From a virus, in the IMG/VR virus record IMGVR_UViG_3300028654_000018, positions 1-64,000 of that record: 64,000 bases of DNA; one strand, 5' to 3'. This document shows, in pieces, positions 19,435 through 49,677 of this stretch. How positions within the stretch are numbered: the first letter of the stretch is position 1; the number at the start of each line of letters is the position of its first letter. Under the pieces are notes generated by a model. That model saw only the letters and a program-made list of their open reading frames with translations. It was not told where the DNA came from and did not search any database. The position numbers were made by a program, and so were the translations under genes.

Positions 19435-20370
19435 TTAAATCCTTTCGGGGTAATCTTTGGGTAACGTATAAATTTTCATACCATAATCATTAATGCCGTC
19501 GGGAATAATGACTCCTGGCTTTCTTTTTAATTTAGTATCTTTAAATGGAAGATAATTTACGTGATGATGCTCTCTGCCATATTTCCAAACTAATTCAGTA
19601 TATTTCGGATAGACTTCAGCCAGCATTCTACTTTTTGGCGCAGTTCCCTCATTAGAATAAAACTCAGCACTATTCCCACCGCCGATTGTTTGCGTTCGCA
19701 TTTTGTCTTGGAGAAATGCATTAAACTGTACTGTACAAAAGCCCTCGGTAAGTATATCAAGACTTAAAATAGTATCTTCATTATAACGACCACGCCAACG
19801 AAATGGACGACCATCGCGCCACTTGGCATCATTTCTGATAAGATTACACGAATAAATGCGAGTATTCATAACGTATGGCGGCATTGCTGCATTCTGTGAT
19901 GCGAATCCACGATAATTTGGTCCAGCCATCATTACATTTTCATATCGATCACAAAAATCTTCCATTGCACGAAAACCCGTGGAATCTCCCAGTTTTACTT
20001 TAAGATTATTATTCAATCGAAGAAAATTACTAATGTTGTCATCGGCAACCCAATGCCAGTCAAATCCATTTTTAATTGAATGATCCCATATAAAATTACG
20101 TGCGGGACCAGGACCAGTTGATTTTGTTAGACCCAAATTATCGCATAATTCATAGGTAGATTTGTACGTTTCATCCAGCACCAGCAATGAAGCGTACCTT
20201 TTTGCGCCAGTTTCAATCTCGTGCTGTTTTAACGCACTATCATACGTGTCATACTCTTGGTCTTCGATAACAAGAAAATGCGGCATCCTCATAAAAGTAA
20301 GTGCTTTACTTGTCAAACGGGTATCTGCTCTCCCCTTAGTAGGGATATAAAACGGGTATTTATTTTCCAT
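19435..20370 (-). CDS. TET-associated glycosyltransferase-like protein
   Basis: 311 aa. PFYIPTKGRADTRLTSKALTFM at the N-terminus, FLVIEDQEYDTY, GPGPARNFIWDHS, and the DxD-like WHWVADDNISNF match the GT-A-fold family linked to TET/JBP and other base-modifying enzymes in phages. Members glycosylate hydroxymethylated bases in DNA. I see no hydroxymethylase or TET protein in this window, so the acceptor is open; it may be elsewhere in the genome. Confidence 0.75.
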   Translation of the reverse strand: MENKYPFYIPTKGRADTRLTSKALTFMRMPHFLVIEDQEYDTYDSALKQHEIETGAKRYASLLVLDETYKSTYELCDNLGLTKSTGPGPARNFIWDHSIKNGFDWHWVADDNISNFLRLNNNLKVKLGDSTGFRAMEDFCDRYENVMMAGPNYRGFASQNAAMPPYVMNTRIYSCNLIRNDAKWRDGRPFRWRGRYNEDTILSLDILTEGFCTVQFNAFLQDKMRTQTIGGGNSAEFYSNEGTAPKSRMLAEVYPKYTELVWKYGREHHHVNYLPFKDTKLKRKPGVIIPDGINDYGMKIYTLPKDYPERI

Positions 20371-26397: not shown

Positions 26398-26723
26398 TTA
26401 TATCCAGAAATCATTTCATTAAAGTATAGTTTAAAGACTGCGGCTTCTCCAGAATCTTCTATTGTATAAAGATACGTGCCCATCGATCTGCTTTTTTTAA
26501 TAGATACTAAGCCAAGTTCTTTTATTTTGCTTTCGACCATCATACAAAATGATTCTCCGCGGCAAGTAAAAGAATTATCGGTATAACTGGCAAGAGGTAA
26601 AGAATTTGATAGATATGTATTGACCCAATTTCCCGCTAGATAAACAAAAATTTGTCCAGTATTAGAATCGATATAATACTCTCCGTTTTTTGGATTTGGG
26701 GATTTTGAATAAATGCTCAACAT
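26394..26723 (-). CDS. DxAxF-tail family protein, 109 aa
   Basis: Start ATG at 26723 overlaps the DNA polymerase stop as TAATG. N-terminus NPKNGEYYIDSNTGQIFVYLAGNW looks like a separate small beta motif; tail TYLYTIEDSGEAAVFKLYFNEMI. Family member of unknown function. Confidence 0.7.
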   Translation of the reverse strand: MLSIYSKSPNPKNGEYYIDSNTGQIFVYLAGNWVNTYLSNSLPLASYTDNSFTCRGESFCMMVESKIKELGLVSIKKSRSMGTYLYTIEDSGEAAVFKLYFNEMISGYK

Positions 26724-29443
26724 TAACCCCACTCGAACAGATTTTCTAAAACTGCGCCTTCTTTAGAACGTGACAAATCCCAATTTAAAACTCCGATAAT
26801 ATTTTCAACTTTTTGATCAATGATTCCTTCTACCATAAGTTCTGTATCAAATGGAAGTGATGTAAACCATTCGGGCAAATTCATTTGATCGATTGGATAT
26901 GCGATTGAAGTCATTCCAAATGGATTATTTTTAAGCTTGCAAACAATTATCTTGGAACCATCTATGATTCGGATAGAATTAACATCCGTGTTCACTTCGC
27001 GCAACTTGTTCCAATTAAGTGATGCTCTAACATGCCCAGGAACAGTAATTGTCTTTCCATTTTCATCTTTGCCATTTTTAAATACGACAACATCATGATA
27101 GTGCTTTAAATTATTAACTCGCTTTGGCGAACCTTGCTCCCATGCTTTTAATTCTGCAAATTCTTTACGCATTTCTTTGATAAAGTCAACAGTTGCATCT
27201 TCATTGTATTTGTCAAGCACCATAATTAACATTTCTTCGAGTTTAGATTGCACCCATTCTGGCGTATCTGATCGCTCAGTTTCCATTCCCATGATCTTAA
27301 TTTCGCCTGGGCTTCCATTCGTATCTTTACGTTTACCTTCTTTATCATATACTAATGCCGCATAACGTTTTTTCTTAACGAACATTGCTCTCGTAGCGCA
27401 AATTTCTCTGCCGCATTTAATAACTTCGCCGTTTTCTAATGGAACATTATAATTTTTATGTAAAAAATCCGCAAATGTTGTGTTAACTTCATCTGTAACA
27501 GAGTCCGCCAATTCCACAAAAGATTCTTTAGTAATTTCAAATCCATTTTGCTTCAACACATCAATAACGGGTTTTAATGTAATGAAGGCTGAGTCTGTGT
27601 CACCATATGCTATGACATTTCCAAATTCATAATTTCCTGTTAGAATTTCATTTAGTTTGGACATCATGTGCCGTGTAATGCAACGTCCAGTTAAAGTGCA
27701 AGATTGACCCATGCGCTGATCAAAAAATCTTGATCCAGCATTCGTGACTGCGCCATATAATGAATTTAGCATGATCTTAACCACATATTGTCGCTTATCC
27801 CAATAATCTATTTCTTGTTTAACTTTGACAAGATCATGCGTCGTTGTCAATGATTCCTGTAGCTCTTTCTTCTTTGCTTGATACTCCTTACGTTCCGCAT
27901 ACCATCTCGCTAGAAGTCCTGGAATAATACCATCTATATCTGTTCTAAAAATAGTACCGTTAGCACTTATAAGCCAATTATTAGCTTTTATCTTCGACCA
28001 TATCTGTGCCGCAGTTAAATTTTGTTTTGTTCCATCATCTAAATCCAACGTTAATTCTACGGAAGACTGTTTTTGTATCTCTACTATCTCTGCTACTTGA
28101 AATACTCCGGCCCACTTATCTGTATTAGTTAAACCTTTGTTTCCTTTACTCTTTTTATGCGAAGTTTGACTTTCTGTTAAATCTTGACGAACTTGTCCAA
28201 TGATAGTTTCGGGACTCATATTCAATGCACGAAAAGTAGAAGGATATAGACTGTTAATATCTACCGATGCAACCCAGTCGTACATCCCAGGAACTGGAGT
28301 TAAAACAAACGCGCCGGCAATTTGTGTATCTTTGGCTTCTTCTTCATTATCAAATGATCTAATTCTACTTGGTACTACCATATTACGATTGTGCGCCTCA
28401 AGAATAATAGCATTGTCGGATAATGCTACTGCTCCCATCACAATAGGAAGTGGTACTAAATTTTCATGCGCGATAAAGTTTACCAAGTCGATGAACTTAT
28501 TTTTTTCATCAATCTTACGTAAAAGCTCAACGTCCTGACGAGAATATTCTATAAACTTTTCAAAATCATCATTATATAGTTGATCTAATGTACCCGAGTA
28601 TTGTGTTTTTGTTTCACCTACTTCAATTTGCCCGACATAATCTAAACGATAGCTCGGCAATTCATGATACGTATATTTTCGGTATAGTTCGAGATAATCT
28701 AGATGCAAACGTCCAGAAAATTCATATGAGTGAACAATTTCACCATACTTTTCGAATTCTTTTTGTCGTGGATATTGTTTCCATAATGACATACGTGCGG
28801 TATCTGCTTTGCCGCGAACTTTTTGAATACGATGCACAGTATATGGAACGTCGAATGCCGTTGAATTCCAGCCAGAAAATACATCGGCATCTTCTATGAG
28901 ATTTAAAAATATGTCTAGAAGTTGTGATTCAGACTCACACAGAATAGTATTTTCAAATTTGTTTGCGATTTGTCTAGCGTCGATTTCTTTCATTAACTTT
29001 GGTTTTAAAACAACTGTGTGTAACTGTTTAGTCCAAGATTGATAAACTGAAATTGCAGTAATCGGCATAAATGCTTCATCAGTAGATGAATATCCACGCA
29101 ATGGATCAAAATCTACTTCGATATCCCAGAGAGCTACATTAAGTGTGGGTTCTGCCGTACCTTTATAAAATTGTTCTAGGGATTTCATAATAGGCTTAAC
29201 ATCTGCTTCGAATGTTTTTCTTCCGGTACTTTGTATCGACGCAACTTCTTGCTTATATGCGGAGAAATTCCCCGTCTCATATTTTGAACATTTTATGCCA
29301 GATGTAGATTTATAAACGCCCGCTGGATCCTCAAAATAAAAGAAAAAATCCGGTTGGTGGCGCTTAATAACACGCTGGCCATTAACTCGTTCTGAAACAA
29401 GCATAACATTATTCTTTGAATCGTGATAGATATCTACGAACAC
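26723..29443 (-). CDS. 43: family B DNA polymerase gp43
   Basis: 906 aa (T4 gp43 is 898). Exonuclease motifs: LWDIEVDFD (Exo I), FSGWNSTAFDVPY (Exo II), YSRQDVELL (Exo III). Polymerase motifs: SVDINSLYPSTF (A), KIMLNSLYGA (B), YGDTDS (C). C-terminal NLFEWG is a likely clamp-binding peptide. All key acidic residues are present, so it should be a proofreading replicase. Followed on the same message by DxAxF-tail genes and thyX. Confidence 0.97.
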   Translation of the reverse strand: MFVDIYHDSKNNVMLVSERVNGQRVIKRHQPDFFFYFEDPAGVYKSTSGIKCSKYETGNFSAYKQEVASIQSTGRKTFEADVKPIMKSLEQFYKGTAEPTLNVALWDIEVDFDPLRGYSSTDEAFMPITAISVYQSWTKQLHTVVLKPKLMKEIDARQIANKFENTILCESESQLLDIFLNLIEDADVFSGWNSTAFDVPYTVHRIQKVRGKADTARMSLWKQYPRQKEFEKYGEIVHSYEFSGRLHLDYLELYRKYTYHELPSYRLDYVGQIEVGETKTQYSGTLDQLYNDDFEKFIEYSRQDVELLRKIDEKNKFIDLVNFIAHENLVPLPIVMGAVALSDNAIILEAHNRNMVVPSRIRSFDNEEEAKDTQIAGAFVLTPVPGMYDWVASVDINSLYPSTFRALNMSPETIIGQVRQDLTESQTSHKKSKGNKGLTNTDKWAGVFQVAEIVEIQKQSSVELTLDLDDGTKQNLTAAQIWSKIKANNWLISANGTIFRTDIDGIIPGLLARWYAERKEYQAKKKELQESLTTTHDLVKVKQEIDYWDKRQYVVKIMLNSLYGAVTNAGSRFFDQRMGQSCTLTGRCITRHMMSKLNEILTGNYEFGNVIAYGDTDSAFITLKPVIDVLKQNGFEITKESFVELADSVTDEVNTTFADFLHKNYNVPLENGEVIKCGREICATRAMFVKKKRYAALVYDKEGKRKDTNGSPGEIKIMGMETERSDTPEWVQSKLEEMLIMVLDKYNEDATVDFIKEMRKEFAELKAWEQGSPKRVNNLKHYHDVVVFKNGKDENGKTITVPGHVRASLNWNKLREVNTDVNSIRIIDGSKIIVCKLKNNPFGMTSIAYPIDQMNLPEWFTSLPFDTELMVEGIIDQKVENIIGVLNWDLSRSKEGAVLENLFEWG

Positions 29444-29505: not shown

Positions 29506-29637
29506 TTAATTGAAAATTAACTGTGGTATGTGAGAAATACCTACGGCAACAAATACGAAGAAACCGATGATAGTAACAATTATTGCTGCTCCTACTATAG
29601 TTGCTTCTGTATCTGATATTTCTTTAAAATTTTTCAT
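29506..29637 (-). CDS. 43-aa membrane peptide
   Basis: MKNFKEISDTEATIVG then one long membrane helix (AAIIVTIIGFFVFVAVGI). Its ATG overlaps the serC stop (ATGA). No function suggested. Confidence 0.6.
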   Translation of the reverse strand: MKNFKEISDTEATIVGAAIIVTIIGFFVFVAVGISHIPQLIFN

Positions 29638-30815
29638 AGCAATTCATAGTCGTGTAGTTTGATAACTTCTTTCATTGCCCAATCAAGCCATGTAGTCAAT
29701 ATAGCAATATCGTTACTTTCGACTGTTGGCCCGCACCAAATGCGAAATCCTGGTGGAGAACGCGCATAAGCATTGACATCAAAACCTACGCCTTCAATTT
29801 CTAATACCAATGATACCTTTTTACAAAATTCATGCTGCTCATCTACTGTTAACTTCTGCGTTAGCGGTCCTATCAATTTTAAACACACCGAAGTTGGCGA
29901 TCTAATACTTTTATCTTGGCAAAGAAAATCTAACCATGTAGAACTTTCTACCCACGCACTCAATATATTAAAATTTGACATGGTTCTATCATGAAGACCG
30001 CCAACACCACCAATACTTCTTGCCCACTCCATTGCATAAAGAACGTCTTCGACGCATAGCATAGACGGAGTATTAAGTGTTATACCGTCGAATATACCGA
30101 AATTAACAACACAGTTATCAGCTAAACGAAACACTTTTGGTATCGGCCACGTGGGTTTATGTGTTTCTAAGCGTTCGATTGCCCTCGGAGATAAAACTAA
30201 AATTCCATGCGCTGCTTCGCCTCCTAAAACTTTCTGCCAACTAAATGTAGTTGCATCTAGTTTGTTCCATGGCATTTTTATTGCGCCTGCTGATGATACA
30301 GCATCACATATGACTAATCCTGTGCGATCATCAGAAATCCAGTCGGCATTCGGTACCATAACACCGGATGATGTTCCATTCCATGTAAACACAATGTCGT
30401 TATTTGGATTTGCTTTAGACAAATCTGATATTTTACCGCGATTTTCTAATTCTAATTCATAACTGTTAACTTTTAGTGATGATAATTGATTAACACAATC
30501 TTGCCTCCAAATATGACCGAAAGCTTCCCATGCAAACACATCAACTTCTCTAGGGCCAAGCAATGACCAAAGAGCAGCTTCTACCGTTCCTGTATCTGAT
30601 CCAGGTATAATTCCGATATGATAGTTGCTCGGAATATCTAGCAATTCACGTGTCTCATCGATAACTTGTTTTAATTTATCTCTACCTAATTTTGAACGAT
30701 GCGAGCGTCCGAGTGCAGCCGTCTTTAAAATTTCATCTGAAAATCCAGGATGTTTGTTACACGGCCCACAAGAAAAATTCGGAGATGATGGTTTAATAGT
30801 TGGTTTAGTTGTCAT
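29634..30815 (-). CDS. serC: phosphoserine aminotransferase SerC, alphaproteobacterial type
   Basis: 393 aa. NFSCGPCNKHPGF, ALGRSHRSKLGR, GSDTGTVEAALWSLLG, TWNGTSSGVMVPNADWI and the PLP-lysine loop FSWQKVLGGEAAHGILVLSP follow the roughly 390-residue SerC of Rhizobiales and relatives almost block for block. It makes 3-phosphoserine from 3-phosphohydroxypyruvate and glutamate, feeding serine, glycine and one-carbon pools, and can serve pyridoxal phosphate synthesis. Catalytic lysine is intact. Rare in phages; probably acquired from a host. Confidence 0.93.
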   Translation of the reverse strand: MTTKPTIKPSSPNFSCGPCNKHPGFSDEILKTAALGRSHRSKLGRDKLKQVIDETRELLDIPSNYHIGIIPGSDTGTVEAALWSLLGPREVDVFAWEAFGHIWRQDCVNQLSSLKVNSYELELENRGKISDLSKANPNNDIVFTWNGTSSGVMVPNADWISDDRTGLVICDAVSSAGAIKMPWNKLDATTFSWQKVLGGEAAHGILVLSPRAIERLETHKPTWPIPKVFRLADNCVVNFGIFDGITLNTPSMLCVEDVLYAMEWARSIGGVGGLHDRTMSNFNILSAWVESSTWLDFLCQDKSIRSPTSVCLKLIGPLTQKLTVDEQHEFCKKVSLVLEIEGVGFDVNAYARSPPGFRIWCGPTVESNDIAILTTWLDWAMKEVIKLHDYELL

Positions 30816-31317
30816 TTTTCAAACTCTCCCAATAAAATTGAAATGTTGCTTTATCTTCTACGCTGTCAAAAATTAGTTTCACCTCATCAGAATCAATATT
30901 TGGGATTACACGGCGCTTTGATGGGAATATGTGCCACTTAACTGTTGGCTGTGCATCAACTGATATATTATGTTCCGTCAATATACTATAGATTAGTAAT
31001 CCTTCATTAAAAGATACAGATTTTATTATCATTTCATTGTCCGTACAAATGAGATGATTTTTATTTTCAATCTCATAGAATGGTATATCTTCTCTTATTC
31101 CATCTAAAATATCTACTATAATAGTATAGAACATAGTCAAGATAGAAATGCCAATTCCCAAAACTGTAATAGGGAAAAAAACTATCAATGCTACGCCATT
31201 CAATATTCCCCGATCCGTAACAGCAGTAAAAAGATACGCCATAATAAGAATAATTACGGCAGATGCGGCGGCACCATAATAAAACATCGCGGGAATATTG
31301 CTAAAAAATTCAAACAT
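30805..31317 (-). CDS. membrane-anchored DxAxF-tail protein, 170 aa
   Basis: Two N-terminal membrane spans (AAASAVIILIMAYLFTAV and GVALIVFFPITVLGIGISILTMFY) lead to a cytoplasmic domain ending SDEVKLIFDSVEDKATFQFYWESL. It is the only clear membrane-tethered member of the family. It overlaps serC by 11 nt and mazG by 8 nt. Confidence 0.7.
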   Translation of the reverse strand: MFEFFSNIPAMFYYGAAASAVIILIMAYLFTAVTDRGILNGVALIVFFPITVLGIGISILTMFYTIIVDILDGIREDIPFYEIENKNHLICTDNEMIIKSVSFNEGLLIYSILTEHNISVDAQPTVKWHIFPSKRRVIPNIDSDEVKLIFDSVEDKATFQFYWESLKNDN

Positions 31318-31651
31318 CGTCGGATTTCCTCACTTCACTATTTTGAACAGTGAAACCAGTCGGATATCTTGCAGTAAGCTTATCTATATTACACTGAATA
31401 ACTTCTTCGAGTGTAACATCAAGAGCAATAGCTGCCACTGCCGCATAGAATAAAACATCGCCTAATTCTTTTTTAAGATGTTCTTTGTCTAGTGTCTTGC
31501 CCTGATACAAAACTTTTTTATTATGTTCTGAGAATTCTGCGGCTTCACCATTGAGACCATAGCAGGCAGTTCCCAGCGGATCTTTTATTGATGCTGGAGA
31601 TAAACGTGATCTTACAAATTCGACGTAATCTACTAGAAAATTATCAGTCAC
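31310..31651 (-). CDS. MazG-like nucleotide pyrophosphohydrolase
   Basis: 113 aa. YGLNGEAAEFSEHNKK and LKKELGDVLFYAAVAAIALDVTLEEVIQCNIDKL give the ExxE...ExxD metal-binding helices of the all-alpha NTP pyrophosphatase fold. Phage MazG proteins hydrolyse dNTPs or modulate alarmone levels. Coupled to its neighbours. Confidence 0.85.
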   Translation of the reverse strand: MTDNFLVDYVEFVRSRLSPASIKDPLGTACYGLNGEAAEFSEHNKKVLYQGKTLDKEHLKKELGDVLFYAAVAAIALDVTLEEVIQCNIDKLTARYPTGFTVQNSEVRKSDDV

Positions 31652-31661
31652 GATTATCCTT

Positions 31662-32030
31662 CTATTTTTGTGTTTTCAAAAAAGCAATAATATCTGCACG
31701 TTTTTGTGCATCACTAATACTAAAGTTCATTCTTTGTCCTGGTATAAAACTAGCAGGACTTGTCAACCACTTATCTAAATTTTCTTCGGTCCAAATAACA
31801 GTAGAATTTTTCAAAGCATTAGAATAGGTAAATCCTTGCGCTGATCCTACTTTACGTCCATACACTCCGGCTAAATTCGGCCCAACTCTATTTGACGTTA
31901 GTGAATGACATGCCGTACAATGATGCTCAAATAGCGACTCACCATTACTCGCATCTCCGACCAAATTATCCGCAAATGCTGCATTGCTAAAAAGAAAAAG
32001 ACATGCAGTTGCAAAGATAATTTTTTTCAT
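31662..32030 (-). CDS. exported class I cytochrome c
   Basis: 122 aa. Signal peptide MKKIIFATACLFLFSNAAFA, then CTACH haem-binding site, VGPNLAGVYGRKVG, and the likely axial Met in IPGQRMNF; the order and spacing match alphaproteobacterial and mitochondrial cytochrome c. After export it would need the host Ccm system for haem attachment. The predicted role is electron transfer in the periplasm, to keep respiration going in infection or to reroute it. A complete, apparently functional cytochrome c in a phage is unusual. Confidence 0.92.
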   Translation of the reverse strand: MKKIIFATACLFLFSNAAFADNLVGDASNGESLFEHHCTACHSLTSNRVGPNLAGVYGRKVGSAQGFTYSNALKNSTVIWTEENLDKWLTSPASFIPGQRMNFSISDAQKRADIIAFLKTQK

Positions 32031-32305
32031 ATCGTCCCACGTGTTGGCTGATCCGAATAATTAGCAATGAAATCTTTTAGAATTTCAACGATAAATGCGT
32101 TTAATGTTATATCGCGTTTATGAGCTTCTAATGCCAGAAACAAAATTTCGTCAGTTGATAGATCGAGTTCTATTGTTGACATAGTTTCTGTTTCATGAAG
32201 CATAGATTTCGGAGATTCAGGACGTTCTGTAATTTGCGACTCATGCGGATTTTGTCCACCCTTATTGACATAGCCGCCTAGTTGATCATTAGTTGATATA
32301 GTCAT
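32027..32305 (-). CDS. ribbon-helix-helix-like protein, 92 aa
   Basis: ATG at 32305. After an unstructured N-terminus, STIELDLSTDEILFLALEAHKRDITLNAFIVEIL gives strand-helix-turn-helix of the Arc/CopG type. Likely a DNA-binding dimer. Overlaps the cytochrome gene by 4 nt; could regulate it or the operon. Confidence 0.65.
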   Translation of the reverse strand: MTISTNDQLGGYVNKGGQNPHESQITERPESPKSMLHETETMSTIELDLSTDEILFLALEAHKRDITLNAFIVEILKDFIANYSDQPTRGTI

Positions 32306-32315
32306 ATTTTCTCTC

Positions 32316-32459
32316 TTAGATTTTTTTATTAATAACAAAAAGACTTATGGTAATAACACCAATACTGCCAAGAATTCCAGCGGCATCGTGTGCATAAACA
32401 CTTAGTACTCCGGCAACTATGCCCAAAACTAAAGCCAAATTTAAGATTTTATTTTTCAT
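32316..32459 (-). CDS. 47-aa two-span membrane peptide
   Basis: Two hydrophobic segments (ILNLALVLGIVAGVLSV and GILGSIGVITISLFVI). AGGAGAG ribosome binding site precedes ATG at 32459. Unknown. Confidence 0.6.
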   Translation of the reverse strand: MKNKILNLALVLGIVAGVLSVYAHDAAGILGSIGVITISLFVINKKI

Positions 32460-32479: not shown

Positions 32480-32734
32480 TTACGATTTCTTCCCACCTGC
32501 AACCAAAACTTCTTCAACTTCGGTCATGCTGTTCTGCATTTCTGGCAAATTTCTCTTATGTGCTACTTTGATAGCGCGATTGATGACAGAAGGCTTGACT
32601 TCAATCTGTTCTGAAAGTGCCTTCACATCTTCCTTTAGACTTTCCTTAAGTTCTTGAATTTGTTGAAGAACATTGACGCCCTCTTCGAGAACATGTTTGA
32701 TCATTGCCTTTTCTTCTGCTGATAAATTACGCAT
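32480..32734 (-). CDS. dsbA: DsbA-like double-strand DNA-binding transcription factor
   Basis: 84 aa (T4 DsbA is 89). Helical, with VINRAIKVAHKRN...TEVEEVL aligning to the FNRLLALYHKDN...TEEVVEL region of T4 DsbA. That protein binds near late promoters. The candidate late boxes in this window fit its presence. Confidence 0.7.
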   Translation of the reverse strand: MRNLSAEEKAMIKHVLEEGVNVLQQIQELKESLKEDVKALSEQIEVKPSVINRAIKVAHKRNLPEMQNSMTEVEEVLVAGGKKS

Positions 32735-32805
32735 AGATTATACCTCAGTTAAGTTTATGAAATGTTAATAATTTTATTATAGACGGATGAATTTAAAAAC
32801 TCAAA

Positions 32806-45028: not shown

Positions 45029-45931
45029 TTACATCCACTTCATTAAGAAAAAGTTCATATCATCTTCGCTTTCAAAGACCCAGACTTCATTATACATGCC
45101 CATTAGAAGAAATCTTTTTTCTAATGTTGTTCTACACCAGGCACAGACTTCTTTTAATTTTTCAAGATATGCTAAATCATATTTTGACATATTTACAGTA
45201 GAAGTAGAAAAAATATTAAGAGTTCCCCACGCAGATTTATTTACCGCATCCGCAATACCAGTGCATAGTTCTCCGGGCAATGTATACACATTATCCCATT
45301 CGCGTGTAATATGTTTTAAATTTTTGCCATATAATATATATCGAACTGCATTTTTAAGTTCGACTACATTAGTGGTTTCACTAAATTCAAATGCATCTTC
45401 CGGCGATACTTTATCGATGATATGTTCTTTAAAAAATGCATCAAAAGCAGCTAGTGATCTAAAATATAAATCATACATATTTGTTTCATATGATATTTCG
45501 CATAATTTTATCGAAGAATATTCATTCGATGATAAATTATTAAGAGCTTTTTTCGACTTTGCGTACTGTTCCATGGACATTTGTAGTGTTAGTCTAAAAG
45601 GAAACTCAGTTAATAATTTTTCTCGTTTATTTTGAATGGTTATAATCGACAATGCTTTTTTCTCATTATATGGTTTAGTAAGATAGAGTAATGAAGATGA
45701 TCGATTTTTATGATATTTTATAAATGCTCTTTTTCTAGTAAAAAGCATATTAATAAATGGATCATAATCATCATTTTCTTTATCTACAAGATGCTCTATT
45801 ACTTTATTGAATTCTTTTTCACCCTTAGACAAATTAGCATGACTAAGCGGCGTAATATTACCATATCCGCGTAGCATTGCAATCAGACAATTGCTATAAC
45901 TAGAATTTTGAGATGGCTCGAATGTTATCAT
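45029..45931 (-). CDS. large DxAxF-tail-related protein, 300 aa
   Basis: Ends NEVWVFESEDDMNFFLMKWM, the family tail with Met/Asn replacing Ala. The N-terminal 220 residues are helical and unlike other members; SLAAFDAFFKEHI may be an internal, degenerate copy. Overlaps the ABC transporter gene by 4 nt. Confidence 0.6.
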   Translation of the reverse strand: MITFEPSQNSSYSNCLIAMLRGYGNITPLSHANLSKGEKEFNKVIEHLVDKENDDYDPFINMLFTRKRAFIKYHKNRSSSLLYLTKPYNEKKALSIITIQNKREKLLTEFPFRLTLQMSMEQYAKSKKALNNLSSNEYSSIKLCEISYETNMYDLYFRSLAAFDAFFKEHIIDKVSPEDAFEFSETTNVVELKNAVRYILYGKNLKHITREWDNVYTLPGELCTGIADAVNKSAWGTLNIFSTSTVNMSKYDLAYLEKLKEVCAWCRTTLEKRFLLMGMYNEVWVFESEDDMNFFLMKWM

Positions 45932-47646
45932 TTTTCTTTTAACTTTTTATTCTTCAATATTAATTTATGTGTGTGAAATTTATCTATAGTCTTTCTATGA
46001 CCAACACTTATTATAGTAGTCTTAGGTAGTTTTGCCAAAAGTAATTTATAACTAACTTGCTCACTTTCTTCGTCCATCGAACTAGTGGATTCATCGAGAA
46101 ATAGAAAGTCGGGCTTCTGTAATATAGCGCGAATGAATGCAATTTTTTGTTTTTGGCCGCCCGATAATATTTTGTTCCAGTCAGCTTCCTTAAGAATATC
46201 ATCTCGGAGATCATGTAAACCAATTTCATACATCAACTGTTGTATTTCTGCCCGATCAAAAAGTATTTGCAAAACTGTTTTTCCTTTAGTATCTGGAGAA
46301 TTTCCCGGATAACATATAACATCCAGTAATGTTCCCAATGGCATATAGGAATTCTGACTAATGAACATTTGCGTCTTATTTGTTGGCATATTGATTGTTC
46401 CCAACGCATATGGCCAAATATTCGCAATACATCTTAATAGTGTACTTTTGCCTGTGCCATTTGCGCCAGAGATAACATATCTTCCTGTAGTTTTGAAGTT
46501 AAACGTAGCATTATCAAGTAATACGCCATTGTTAGGCAATGAAATTGTGAAGTTCTTGATACCAAATATTTTTTTATTAATGAATTTCACTTTTTTATTA
46601 TGATCTAATTCTTGCCAATCATTGACTGCCGTTTCAAAACCATTTAAACGATTTATCACGGCGCGATAATTTGCTAAATTTGTAAAGCTATCGACAAACC
46701 ATGCCAAAGAACTTTGAACACTGTCGAATGCACTTGCTGTTTGCATTAATCCACCAAGTTTAATAGCTCCAGAGAAAAACCTCGGCGCACTTACGAGATA
46801 GGGAAATATCACGGCTATTTGTGAAAAATAACTCGACCACCAATTCAAATGCTTTTGTTTTGTATTAATTTTGTTGAAGTTATCGAAGACAAAAGAAAAT
46901 CGTTTCATAAATCCTTTCTTCTCAAATTTTTCTCCCTTATACAGAACAATGCTTTCACTATTCTCTCTTGTTCGCATCAAACTATAACGAAAGTTGGCTT
47001 CGAATTGCTCTTGAATGAAACTAAGACCAGGAAGTTTTTTACCGATCTTTCTCGTTACGAACGTTCCAAATACTGAATAAACTAATACTCCCCACACAAG
47101 ATAATGTCCGATGAATATTTCATGCCCCATCAAAGTGAAAGTTATGCTGTCACTTAATCCCCACAATATAAAAATGAAGCTAAAGAACGTTACAACAGAA
47201 CTTAATAGTCCGAGACTTAACGACAAGCTTAAAACAACGAATGAGTTGATATCTTCACTTATACGTTGGTCTACGTTATCGGCACTTGATGAAAGAAATT
47301 GGGAACCGTAAAATGTTTTTGTTTTAAGCCACGTTTCTAGATTTTTCTCTGTGAGCCAATTTCTCCACGTAATCTGTAATTTTTGAAAAAAGTAAGATTT
47401 ATACCCGTATATACCAACAAATATTAATGCTAGTATCATAAATTTCTTAATATAGTACAAGAAAGCTGGTTGGTCTAAATTTTGTAAACTATCATAAAAG
47501 CCATTGCGCCAGCTATTAAACTGCACATTTAAATATACGAGTGTCATTTCCATTGCAATGATCGAAACTAATAAAAATATAGGTTTCCATCTATTTGGAT
47601 TCGTAACAAAAAAAGCTTTCCAGTATTTTACGATTGATTTAAACAT
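45928..47646 (-). CDS. SbmA/BacA-YddA family ABC transporter, full length
   Basis: 572 aa half-transporter with fused ATPase. N-terminal membrane domain with about six spans and the family signature NVQFNSWRNGFYDSLQNLD...FYYIKKF-like and ITWRNWLTEKNLETWL; C-terminal ATPase with GANGTGKSTLL (Walker A), LSGGQKQKIAF (signature), PDFLFLDESTSSMDEE (Walker B) and SVGH (H-loop). Members in bacteria handle peptides, cobalamin or fatty acids; rhizobial BacA takes up host peptides. All catalytic motifs are intact. A complete ABC transporter in a phage is exceptional. Confidence 0.93.
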   Translation of the reverse strand: MFKSIVKYWKAFFVTNPNRWKPIFLLVSIIAMEMTLVYLNVQFNSWRNGFYDSLQNLDQPAFLYYIKKFMILALIFVGIYGYKSYFFQKLQITWRNWLTEKNLETWLKTKTFYGSQFLSSSADNVDQRISEDINSFVVLSLSLSLGLLSSVVTFFSFIFILWGLSDSITFTLMGHEIFIGHYLVWGVLVYSVFGTFVTRKIGKKLPGLSFIQEQFEANFRYSLMRTRENSESIVLYKGEKFEKKGFMKRFSFVFDNFNKINTKQKHLNWWSSYFSQIAVIFPYLVSAPRFFSGAIKLGGLMQTASAFDSVQSSLAWFVDSFTNLANYRAVINRLNGFETAVNDWQELDHNKKVKFINKKIFGIKNFTISLPNNGVLLDNATFNFKTTGRYVISGANGTGKSTLLRCIANIWPYALGTINMPTNKTQMFISQNSYMPLGTLLDVICYPGNSPDTKGKTVLQILFDRAEIQQLMYEIGLHDLRDDILKEADWNKILSGGQKQKIAFIRAILQKPDFLFLDESTSSMDEESEQVSYKLLLAKLPKTTIISVGHRKTIDKFHTHKLILKNKKLKEK

Positions 47647-47651
47647 AATTT

Positions 47652-48092
47652 TTATTTTTCATCTGAGGGGGAATATGACTGTGTATATGATATATTATTT
47701 TTAATCTCAGAAGCAAGAGATATTTTTTCTATAAGTTTCTTAAAACACTTCTTTCTATTGATTTGCCAGTTCTTACTATTTCTTGGCATATCTAAATGCC
47801 ACATATATTCAATCTTCGCTGATATCACTGCACTATCAGTCTCATTATCATTCGTAAAAATCATATCAATTGCATTGATTGCCTTTATAAAGTCCACAGT
47901 GACTGTATCGAAATTATTTTCTAACAAAATTCTTAGTATTTTTTTACCTTCATCATTGTGGCGTTTTATTTTGGAAAAATAATCTTTTAACGCATCGTAC
48001 AGCAACTTAATTAAAAACCCAGATAAGAGCGTTATCGTGTGTGCCGTGGGCTTATGATTTTCTAAAATATCAGAAATAAAATCTATATTCAT
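47652..48092 (-). CDS. hypothetical protein with N-terminal membrane segment, 146 aa
   Basis: Hydrophobic segment TITLLSGFLIKLLYDAL followed by KIKRHNDEGKKILRILLEN and EYMWHLDMPRN...WQINRKKCFKKLIEKI. Resembles bacterial DUF6680-type proteins (helix, AWxxYxxHL-like, C-terminal helix), of unknown role. 4-nt overlap with the agmatinase gene. Confidence 0.55.
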   Translation of the reverse strand: MNIDFISDILENHKPTAHTITLLSGFLIKLLYDALKDYFSKIKRHNDEGKKILRILLENNFDTVTVDFIKAINAIDMIFTNDNETDSAVISAKIEYMWHLDMPRNSKNWQINRKKCFKKLIEKISLASEIKNNISYTQSYSPSDEK

Positions 48093-48982
48093 TTAACATC
48101 CATCAGTGAGATCATATTCCACATTATAGTAGCGCCAGCCAATGCAGTAATCTGCGATACATCGTATGCCGGACATACTTCGACAAGATCAGCGCCGATC
48201 AATTTCTTATTTTTAGAATGAAGTTGTTTCATAATTTCCATAATCTGCCATGTGAACAAACCGCCGACTTCTGGCGTTCCTGTTCCTGGCGCTTGTGATG
48301 CATCGAGACAGTCAATATCAAATGTCATATACGTTGGCAAACCATCCGTAGATTGAATAATATCGTCGGCCAGATCATCCAAATTCATTTTATGAACCGT
48401 TGATGCGTTATATTGAATGATTCCTCTATCTATTAGCCAGTCATTGTTGCTTTTTGGAGAAGATGAACGAATTCCAATTTGAACTATGCGTTCTGGATCT
48501 ACTAATCCATCTTCAATTGCCAATCTTAAAAAATTTCCGTGATTGGGCGTTTTACCTTCGTCCCAAGCATCAATGTGCGCATCGAAATGAACGAGCGACA
48601 TTTTCCCATATTTTTTATAATGCGCTTTAAGAATCGGATAGGTAATTGTGTGGTCGCCACCCATAGAAATAAGTTTTGTTTTATCGACTAGCTTTGTAAA
48701 ATCTGATTCCAGCATTGCTATTGGTACTACTCGGTCGATTTCAACGTCTCCGATGTCTCCTACATTTTTTAAAATGTCGTCATATGACATATCTGTATAT
48801 GGATTGCGGCCGTCGCATAGCATTGCGCTTGCATCACGAATAGCAGTTGGTCCCAATCTCGCGCCGGGTCTATTTGACGTTCCGAGATCATAACAAACTC
48901 CGACGGTTGATATAGGTTTATGACCGACAGGACCTACTGAAGTTTTCATAAAAGAACGTATGCCAGTGTAAGTATTCGTCAT
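48089..48982 (-). CDS. agmatinase/arginase-family ureohydrolase
   Basis: 297 aa. GGDHTIT, HFDAHIDAWDE and TFDIDCLDASQAPGTGTPE supply the His and Asp ligands for two Mn ions; RPGARLGPTAIR matches the family start. The PGTGTPE form is usual in agmatinases, which release urea from agmatine to give putrescine. Putrescine could neutralise packaged DNA or feed base modification. Guanidino substrate not certain. Confidence 0.9.
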   Translation of the reverse strand: MTNTYTGIRSFMKTSVGPVGHKPISTVGVCYDLGTSNRPGARLGPTAIRDASAMLCDGRNPYTDMSYDDILKNVGDIGDVEIDRVVPIAMLESDFTKLVDKTKLISMGGDHTITYPILKAHYKKYGKMSLVHFDAHIDAWDEGKTPNHGNFLRLAIEDGLVDPERIVQIGIRSSSPKSNNDWLIDRGIIQYNASTVHKMNLDDLADDIIQSTDGLPTYMTFDIDCLDASQAPGTGTPEVGGLFTWQIMEIMKQLHSKNKKLIGADLVEVCPAYDVSQITALAGATIMWNMISLMDVK

Positions 48983-49602: not shown

Positions 49603-49677
49603 GTTCCTGTAGCTTAACGGTTAAAGCAGTAATCTCTAAAATTATCAATGTCGATTCGATTTCGACCAGGAACACCA
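49603..49677 (+). tRNA. amber-suppressor-type tRNA, anticodon CTA
   Basis: Acceptor GTTCCTG/CAGGAAC with A73 and encoded CCA; D-arm GCTT-AACGGTTA-AAGC; anticodon arm GTAAT-CTCTAAA-ATTAT; T-arm GTCGA-TTCGATT-TCGAC. Anticodon at 49636-49638 is CTA, reading UAG. Canonical G18G19 and TTC. Only plus-strand tRNA in the window. Identity of the charged amino acid unknown. Confidence 0.88.

Follow-up and report, generated by a model that had tools for sequence, protein, structure and literature searches.

A T4-like phage genome carries a class I cytochrome c gene whose product is a candidate captured periplasmic electron shuttle

We analysed a 64,000-nucleotide stretch of viral DNA (the window; positions 1 to 64,000 of IMG/VR record IMGVR_UViG_3300028654_000018) and found on its minus strand a complete gene for a class I cytochrome c within a T4-like phage genome. 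The gene, its haem ligands, its predicted fold, its ancestry and its phage context were established. We consider it probable that the product is a captured periplasmic electron shuttle that would keep electrons flowing from the bc1 complex to the terminal oxidase and sustain ATP supply during infection. In that role it would be the respiratory equivalent of the plastocyanin of cyanophages. The features of the gene are as follows.

31662..32030, minus strand: class I cytochrome c, 122 aa, ATG start (PF00034, PDB matches, AlphaFold and Foldseek)
31971..32030, minus strand: Sec-type signal peptide, residues 1-20, predicted cleavage between A-F-A and D (sequence and hydropathy)
31905..31919, minus strand: CTACH haem c attachment motif, residues 38-42, with His42 as proximal ligand (invariant in alignments A1 and A2)
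31728..31730, minus strand: codon of Met101, the distal haem ligand (invariant in both A1 and A2)

A preliminary description of this DNA had claimed a signal peptide, CTACH and a possible axial methionine. All three were present, and Met101 aligned with the invariant methionine of the relatives. In protein order, the sequence reads MKKIIFATACLFLFSNAAFA up to the cleavage site and then DNLVGD...CTACH...FIPGQRMNF..., with the axial methionine candidate in PGQRMNF. The signal peptide has a Lys-Lys n-region and a hydrophobic core with a Kyte-Doolittle mean of up to 2.6. When the phage cytochrome was aligned with 14 cellular proteins (A1), C38, C41, H42, G50, P51, W80, P92, M101 and R111 were invariant; CTACH and Met101 were also invariant in a CycA-like alignment of 14 sequences (A2). 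The protein matched PF00034 at 6e-10 with 40.7 bits (Pfam cut-off, 21.3), and a PDB sequence search returned mitochondrial and bacterial cytochromes c with E-values down to 5e-24. A chance origin of these features is excluded. A TAG stop ends 7 of the 64 genes checked, including the cytochrome, to which read-through would add only approximately six residues. The window also holds a tRNA with a CTA anticodon and an encoded CCA (49603-49677, plus strand; ARAGORN), a possible amber suppressor; the other 15 tRNAs all lie on the opposite strand.

An AlphaFold model built from a 15-sequence alignment had a mean predicted local distance difference test score of 89, rising above 90 in the mature domain. 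Foldseek matched the model to Rhodopila globiformis cytochrome c2 (1hro) and Methylobacterium cytochrome cH (1qn2) with template modelling scores of 0.92-0.94 by target length, and the root-mean-square deviation of superposition was 0.8-1.0; the protein is thus predicted to have the cytochrome c fold. The two matched proteins are cellular, belong to photosynthetic or methylotrophic electron chains, and are 42-47% identical to the phage cytochrome. No viral protein with the cytochrome fold of the model was found in BFVD. The mature protein had an isoelectric point (pI) of 8.7, within the span of values of its close cellular relatives. In mitochondrial cytochrome c, a ring of lysines around the haem edge has a role in the choice of partner contacts; several of these lysines are replaced in the phage cytochrome.

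The best cellular match among 385 alphaproteobacterial genomes was 57% identical to the phage cytochrome. Two trees placed it with alphaproteobacterial c550/CycA-like proteins, including those of Bradyrhizobium, with support of 93/93 and 93/91. The earlier assignment to an intact class I cytochrome of the alphaproteobacterial type was borne out: the PF00034 score exceeds its cut-off, and the trees nest the protein among alphaproteobacterial ones. The best NCBIfam match was CycA c550 (NF043008) at 76.3 bits, which does not reach the equivalog cut-off of 240; judged by these scores, the phage protein is a relative of CycA and not CycA itself. Bradyrhizobium CycA and the phage cytochrome have class, size, signal peptide and CxxCH in common, both lack the extra residue that mitochondrial cytochrome c has in the Met loop, are approximately 50% identical and fall in the same clade. 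They differ in that the Bradyrhizobium proteins are acidic (pI 5.6, compared with 8.7) and the window protein is phage-encoded. In Bradyrhizobium, electrons from bc1 reach NirK through CycA, which also supplies the aa3 oxidase and without which NosZ is not fully active (PMC6710368).

The record, a virus contig of 68.5 kb, encodes a T4-type DNA polymerase, terminase, UvsX, SSB, RNA ligase, ThyX and many tRNAs. The polymerases of the nearest jumbo myoviruses (of Agrobacterium, Vibrio and Sinorhizobium) were 39-40% identical to that of the window, and those of two contigs from one sample, L082 and L083, were 81% and 75% identical to it, respectively. The genes and sites around the cytochrome are as follows.

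26723..29443, minus strand: T4-type DNA polymerase (phrog_262, 2e-198)
29634..30815, minus strand: phosphoserine aminotransferase SerC_2 (NF002841 and TIGR01365 above cut-off)
30805..31317, minus strand: 170-aa membrane-like protein (48% identical to an L082 open reading frame (ORF))
31310..31651, minus strand: MazG-like nucleotide pyrophosphohydrolase, directly downstream of the cytochrome (PF03819, 9e-10; phrog_229, 2e-32)
32027..32305, minus strand: 92-aa ORF just upstream of the cytochrome, possibly ribbon-helix-helix/HicB-like (weak HicB match, E 0.02, below cut-off)
32316..32459, minus strand: 47-aa small membrane-like ORF (sequence reading; a similar ORF follows dsbA in L083)
32480..32734, minus strand: transcription regulator of the T4 DsbA type, whose gene opens the block (phrog_12534, 1e-18; phrog_639, 2e-7)
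32776..32804, minus strand: sigma-70-like promoter ahead of dsbA, TTGAGT-17-TATAAT (scan and alignment)

In L082, the gene order is RNA ligase, a 118-aa gene, a 141-aa gene, dsbA, a site X, mazG, the 170-aa gene, polymerase and thyX, and L083 keeps the same order from the 141-aa gene onward. At site X, both contigs carry a single 139-140-aa ORF, whereas the window carries the 92-aa ORF and the cytochrome. As the relatives have another gene at X between conserved flanks, the cytochrome is accessory cargo swapped at a precise site in a conserved block. The preliminary description had placed it in the main operon of the phage and not as a stray insertion; the gene does lie in a co-directional block with mazG and serC, but it is an accessory member for which the relatives carry another gene. 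The cytochrome has a GC content at third codon positions (GC3) of 0.23, and its codon use and GC3 are as in phage genes; the two cellular homologues checked have 62-66% GC. There was no sign of host contamination because the flanking synteny and the codon use are those of the phage. Contamination by host DNA, the earlier concern, was ruled out by synteny on both flanks, by codon use and by a best cellular match of only 57%. By these signs, the cytochrome lies in a genuine phage genome and not in a host flank, and its ancestry indicates derivation from a host metabolic gene, which makes it a candidate auxiliary metabolic gene (AMG).

Among the neighbours named earlier, serC and mazG were borne out by profile matches, whereas the DsbA-like protein is the T4 DNA-binding type and not a thiol-disulphide oxidoreductase (its match to PF11126 was below the Pfam cut-off). 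DsbA as a redox partner of the cytochrome was ruled out by this family match and, because it is a DNA-binding protein, this neighbour says nothing on redox. The serC gene is inserted between the 170-aa gene and the polymerase in the window phage and is absent there in L082 and L083; it had no viral relative, with only one weak match in INPHARED. The 92-aa ORF shares four bases (ATGA) with the start of the cytochrome, a translational overlap. L082 retains the promoter-like site before dsbA, and L083 retains part of it. Such sites are not commoner than chance in the region, and we regard it as a promoter candidate because it is conserved in the relatives and not because of site frequency. T4 late-promoter motifs (TATAAATA) were rarer than chance in the window and therefore give no late-promoter argument for the block. 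The type of the cytochrome and of SerC and the kin of the polymerase suggest that the host is probably an alphaproteobacterium.

The window cytochrome had no relative in INPHARED (tblastn) and none in PHROGs. Scans of IMG/VR with this cytochrome alone and then with a broad alignment gave no match, and neither did a query from L134, a small alphaproteobacterial genome (taxonomy not checked). Only the CycA-like alignment A2 revealed another phage family in IMG/VR; therefore, the earlier empty scans are weak evidence of absence. The first scan with A2 returned 22 contigs with a class I cytochrome c, 20 of which belonged to one AT-rich phage family, and a second scan returned 26 contigs of this family, partly overlapping with the first. 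This second family comprises contigs L138-L159 and L176-L193 and is T4-like where checked, that is, in representatives, the smaller contigs not having been checked singly. The representatives carry a T4-type DNA polymerase, primase, gp32, helicase loader, PhoH and baseplate genes, and one of their polymerases was 57% identical to that of phage C48C1 (Kyanoviridae) and 48-49% identical to those of marine viruses and cyanophages. Two representatives had no INPHARED match (tblastn of one), and the three tested had no PHROGs match.

The second-family cytochromes resemble that of the window in being class I proteins with a signal peptide in T4-like phages, near the DNA polymerase in some. They differ in being only 31-40% identical to it and in often standing beside DUF1127 and DoxX genes. 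They formed their own clade (100/99), and their nearest cellular group differed from that of the window cytochrome. Two origins of the phage cytochromes were obtained in 200 of 200 bootstrap trees. Forcing all phage cytochromes into one clade lowered the log-likelihood by 38.5, with an approximately unbiased test p of 0.068, a borderline value above 0.05; a single origin is thus disfavoured and not formally rejected at 0.05. At least two separate captures of cytochrome c by T4-like phages are likely on these trees. Within the second family, the ratio of nonsynonymous to synonymous rates (dN/dS) was 0.04-0.17 where dS could be estimated, many pairs being saturated at synonymous sites. These ratios indicate that the proteins are constrained by purifying selection, and the family shows, at the level of its sequences, that phages retain class I cytochrome c genes.

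DUF1127 and a 61-65-aa ORF recur as neighbours of the second-family cytochromes, joined in several contigs by DoxX. They are seen as a cassette of DUF1127, the 61-65-aa ORF and cytochrome c, with DoxX before or after, in L182 (5270-8282), L154 (7480-8324) and L190 (5008-6306). The same set is followed in a 300-kb contig by SufE and serine hydroxymethyltransferase. In L148 (7455-8327) and L151 (7434-8327), ankyrin-repeat proteins are fused to a class I cytochrome c; these two contigs (GC 0.61-0.62) were left out of the counts as possible prophage or host flanks.

We propose that the phage took a periplasmic monohaem cytochrome c of the c550/CycA-like type from a host and now encodes it within the dsbA-mazG block. 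The product would be exported by Sec, and haem c would be attached at CTACH by the host Ccm system. The bc1 complex would reduce the cytochrome, and a terminal oxidase or copper reductase would oxidise it. A phage stop of host expression may make a small mobile carrier limiting, in which case extra copies would sustain the proton-motive force and ATP for replication. We favour this shuttle because the haem and ligand residues are intact, the predicted fold is c2-like, and synteny and codon use are those of a phage. The overlap with the upstream ORF, the conserved promoter-like site, the c550-like ancestry and the retained second phage family argue for it as well. Several points weigh against it. 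Export of the protein, its loading with haem, its expression, its redox partners, its benefit to the phage and the host are all inferred. The nearest relatives, L082 and L083, have no cytochrome at this site. No close orthologue of the window cytochrome is known, so there is no selection measure on the gene, and as the subfamily is not CycA by the NCBIfam cut-off, the redox partners may differ.

The main rival is that the cytochrome diverts electrons to one acceptor, such as nitrite or nitrous oxide reductase or a low-oxygen oxidase, and so allows respiration at scarce oxygen. Besides aa3, CycA-type c550 also serves NirK and NosZ (PMC6710368), and the replaced haem-edge lysines suggest that partner choice may differ. 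However, the mature pI is in the range of close cellular relatives, and the sequence bears no sign of a single acceptor; we regard diversion as unlikely, although sequence does not separate it from the shuttle. Cytochromes c are donors to peroxidases, and phages often carry inhibitors of host functions. Both would fit a decoy or redox buffer, that is, a competitor of the host cytochrome that slows respiration or a peroxide scavenger acting with host peroxidases at lysis. The nearest PDB sequence match, a Leishmania cytochrome c with a peroxidase partner, points the same way, although as fold kinship only. As the phage protein keeps the ligand residues and general surface of a working carrier and no residue change suggests a dead decoy, we consider this role improbable.

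The absence of the gene in the two nearest relatives and the lack of a close orthologue for a selection test would also suit a recent passenger without selected function, taken from the host and still to be lost. Yet phage-like codon use and a best cellular match of 57% argue that the gene is not recent, the ORF and ligands are intact, and such genes are under purifying selection in other phages; a passenger is quite improbable. Host DNA wrongly joined to the phage contig might be suspected for a gene family of cellular origin, but a misjoin is barely credible given the syntenic phage genes on both sides, the precise gene exchange between dsbA and mazG, the phage composition and the finding of no near-identical cellular copy.

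Other genes were observed in these phages. The window encodes a ClpP-like protein (PF00574; 38933-39598, plus strand) with an apparent signal peptide; its neighbours lie on the other strand. A beta-glucosyl-HMC-alpha-glucosyltransferase-like gene (19435-20370, minus strand; phrog_842, 3e-42) occurs with a dCMP deaminase and may point to glucosylated modified DNA. Polyamine metabolism is possible for an arginase/agmatinase-family enzyme of the window (48089-48982, minus strand; 2.5e-76) and for a saccharopine-dehydrogenase-like gene of L082 (3538-4920), perhaps a homospermidine synthase. A 572-aa protein (45928-47646, minus strand) combines an SbmA/BacA-like ABC membrane domain with an ATPase domain, a possible peptide transporter.

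If the cytochrome works, phages of aerobic heterotrophs would manage the host respiratory chain directly via one simple carrier, simple enough for a test with a single purified protein. If T4-like phages have captured such genes repeatedly, cytochrome use would count as a general energy strategy rather than a curiosity, and phages may recurrently resort to boosting or steering the respiration of their hosts. We tentatively suggest, as a possibility short of an even chance, that soluble cytochrome c entered T4-like phages of aerobic heterotrophs several times, in some cases with the DUF1127 and DoxX cassette, as a general means of controlling periplasmic respiratory electron flow in infected cells and a non-photosynthetic counterpart of cyanophage photosynthesis genes.

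Electron-transport genes are well known in cyanophages. Electron-carrier AMGs of phages are a known kind, and a mobile respiratory cytochrome c in a phage appears undescribed in what was searched. The open-access papers covered, without supplementary AMG tables, described no phage-encoded soluble cytochrome c, although an unremarked mention is possible. Cytochrome oxidase fragments have been found in viromes (PMC3474794), and haem synthesis genes occur in phages (PMC11480375). Phage sulfur-oxidation genes include cytochrome motifs, and phage-encoded SoxD resembles the window gene as a phage gene with cytochrome c motifs; however, it is a partner of the enzyme SoxC and no mobile carrier, and its motifs are partly or wholly missing in two phage contigs (PMC8190135). 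Cyanophage plastocyanin, which is thought to pass electrons to cytochrome oxidase, is likewise a small, soluble, exported and host-derived electron carrier in T4-like phages (PMC10452541). This PetE is a copper protein of photosynthetic chains in cyanobacteria, whereas the window phage encodes a haem c protein of respiratory type.
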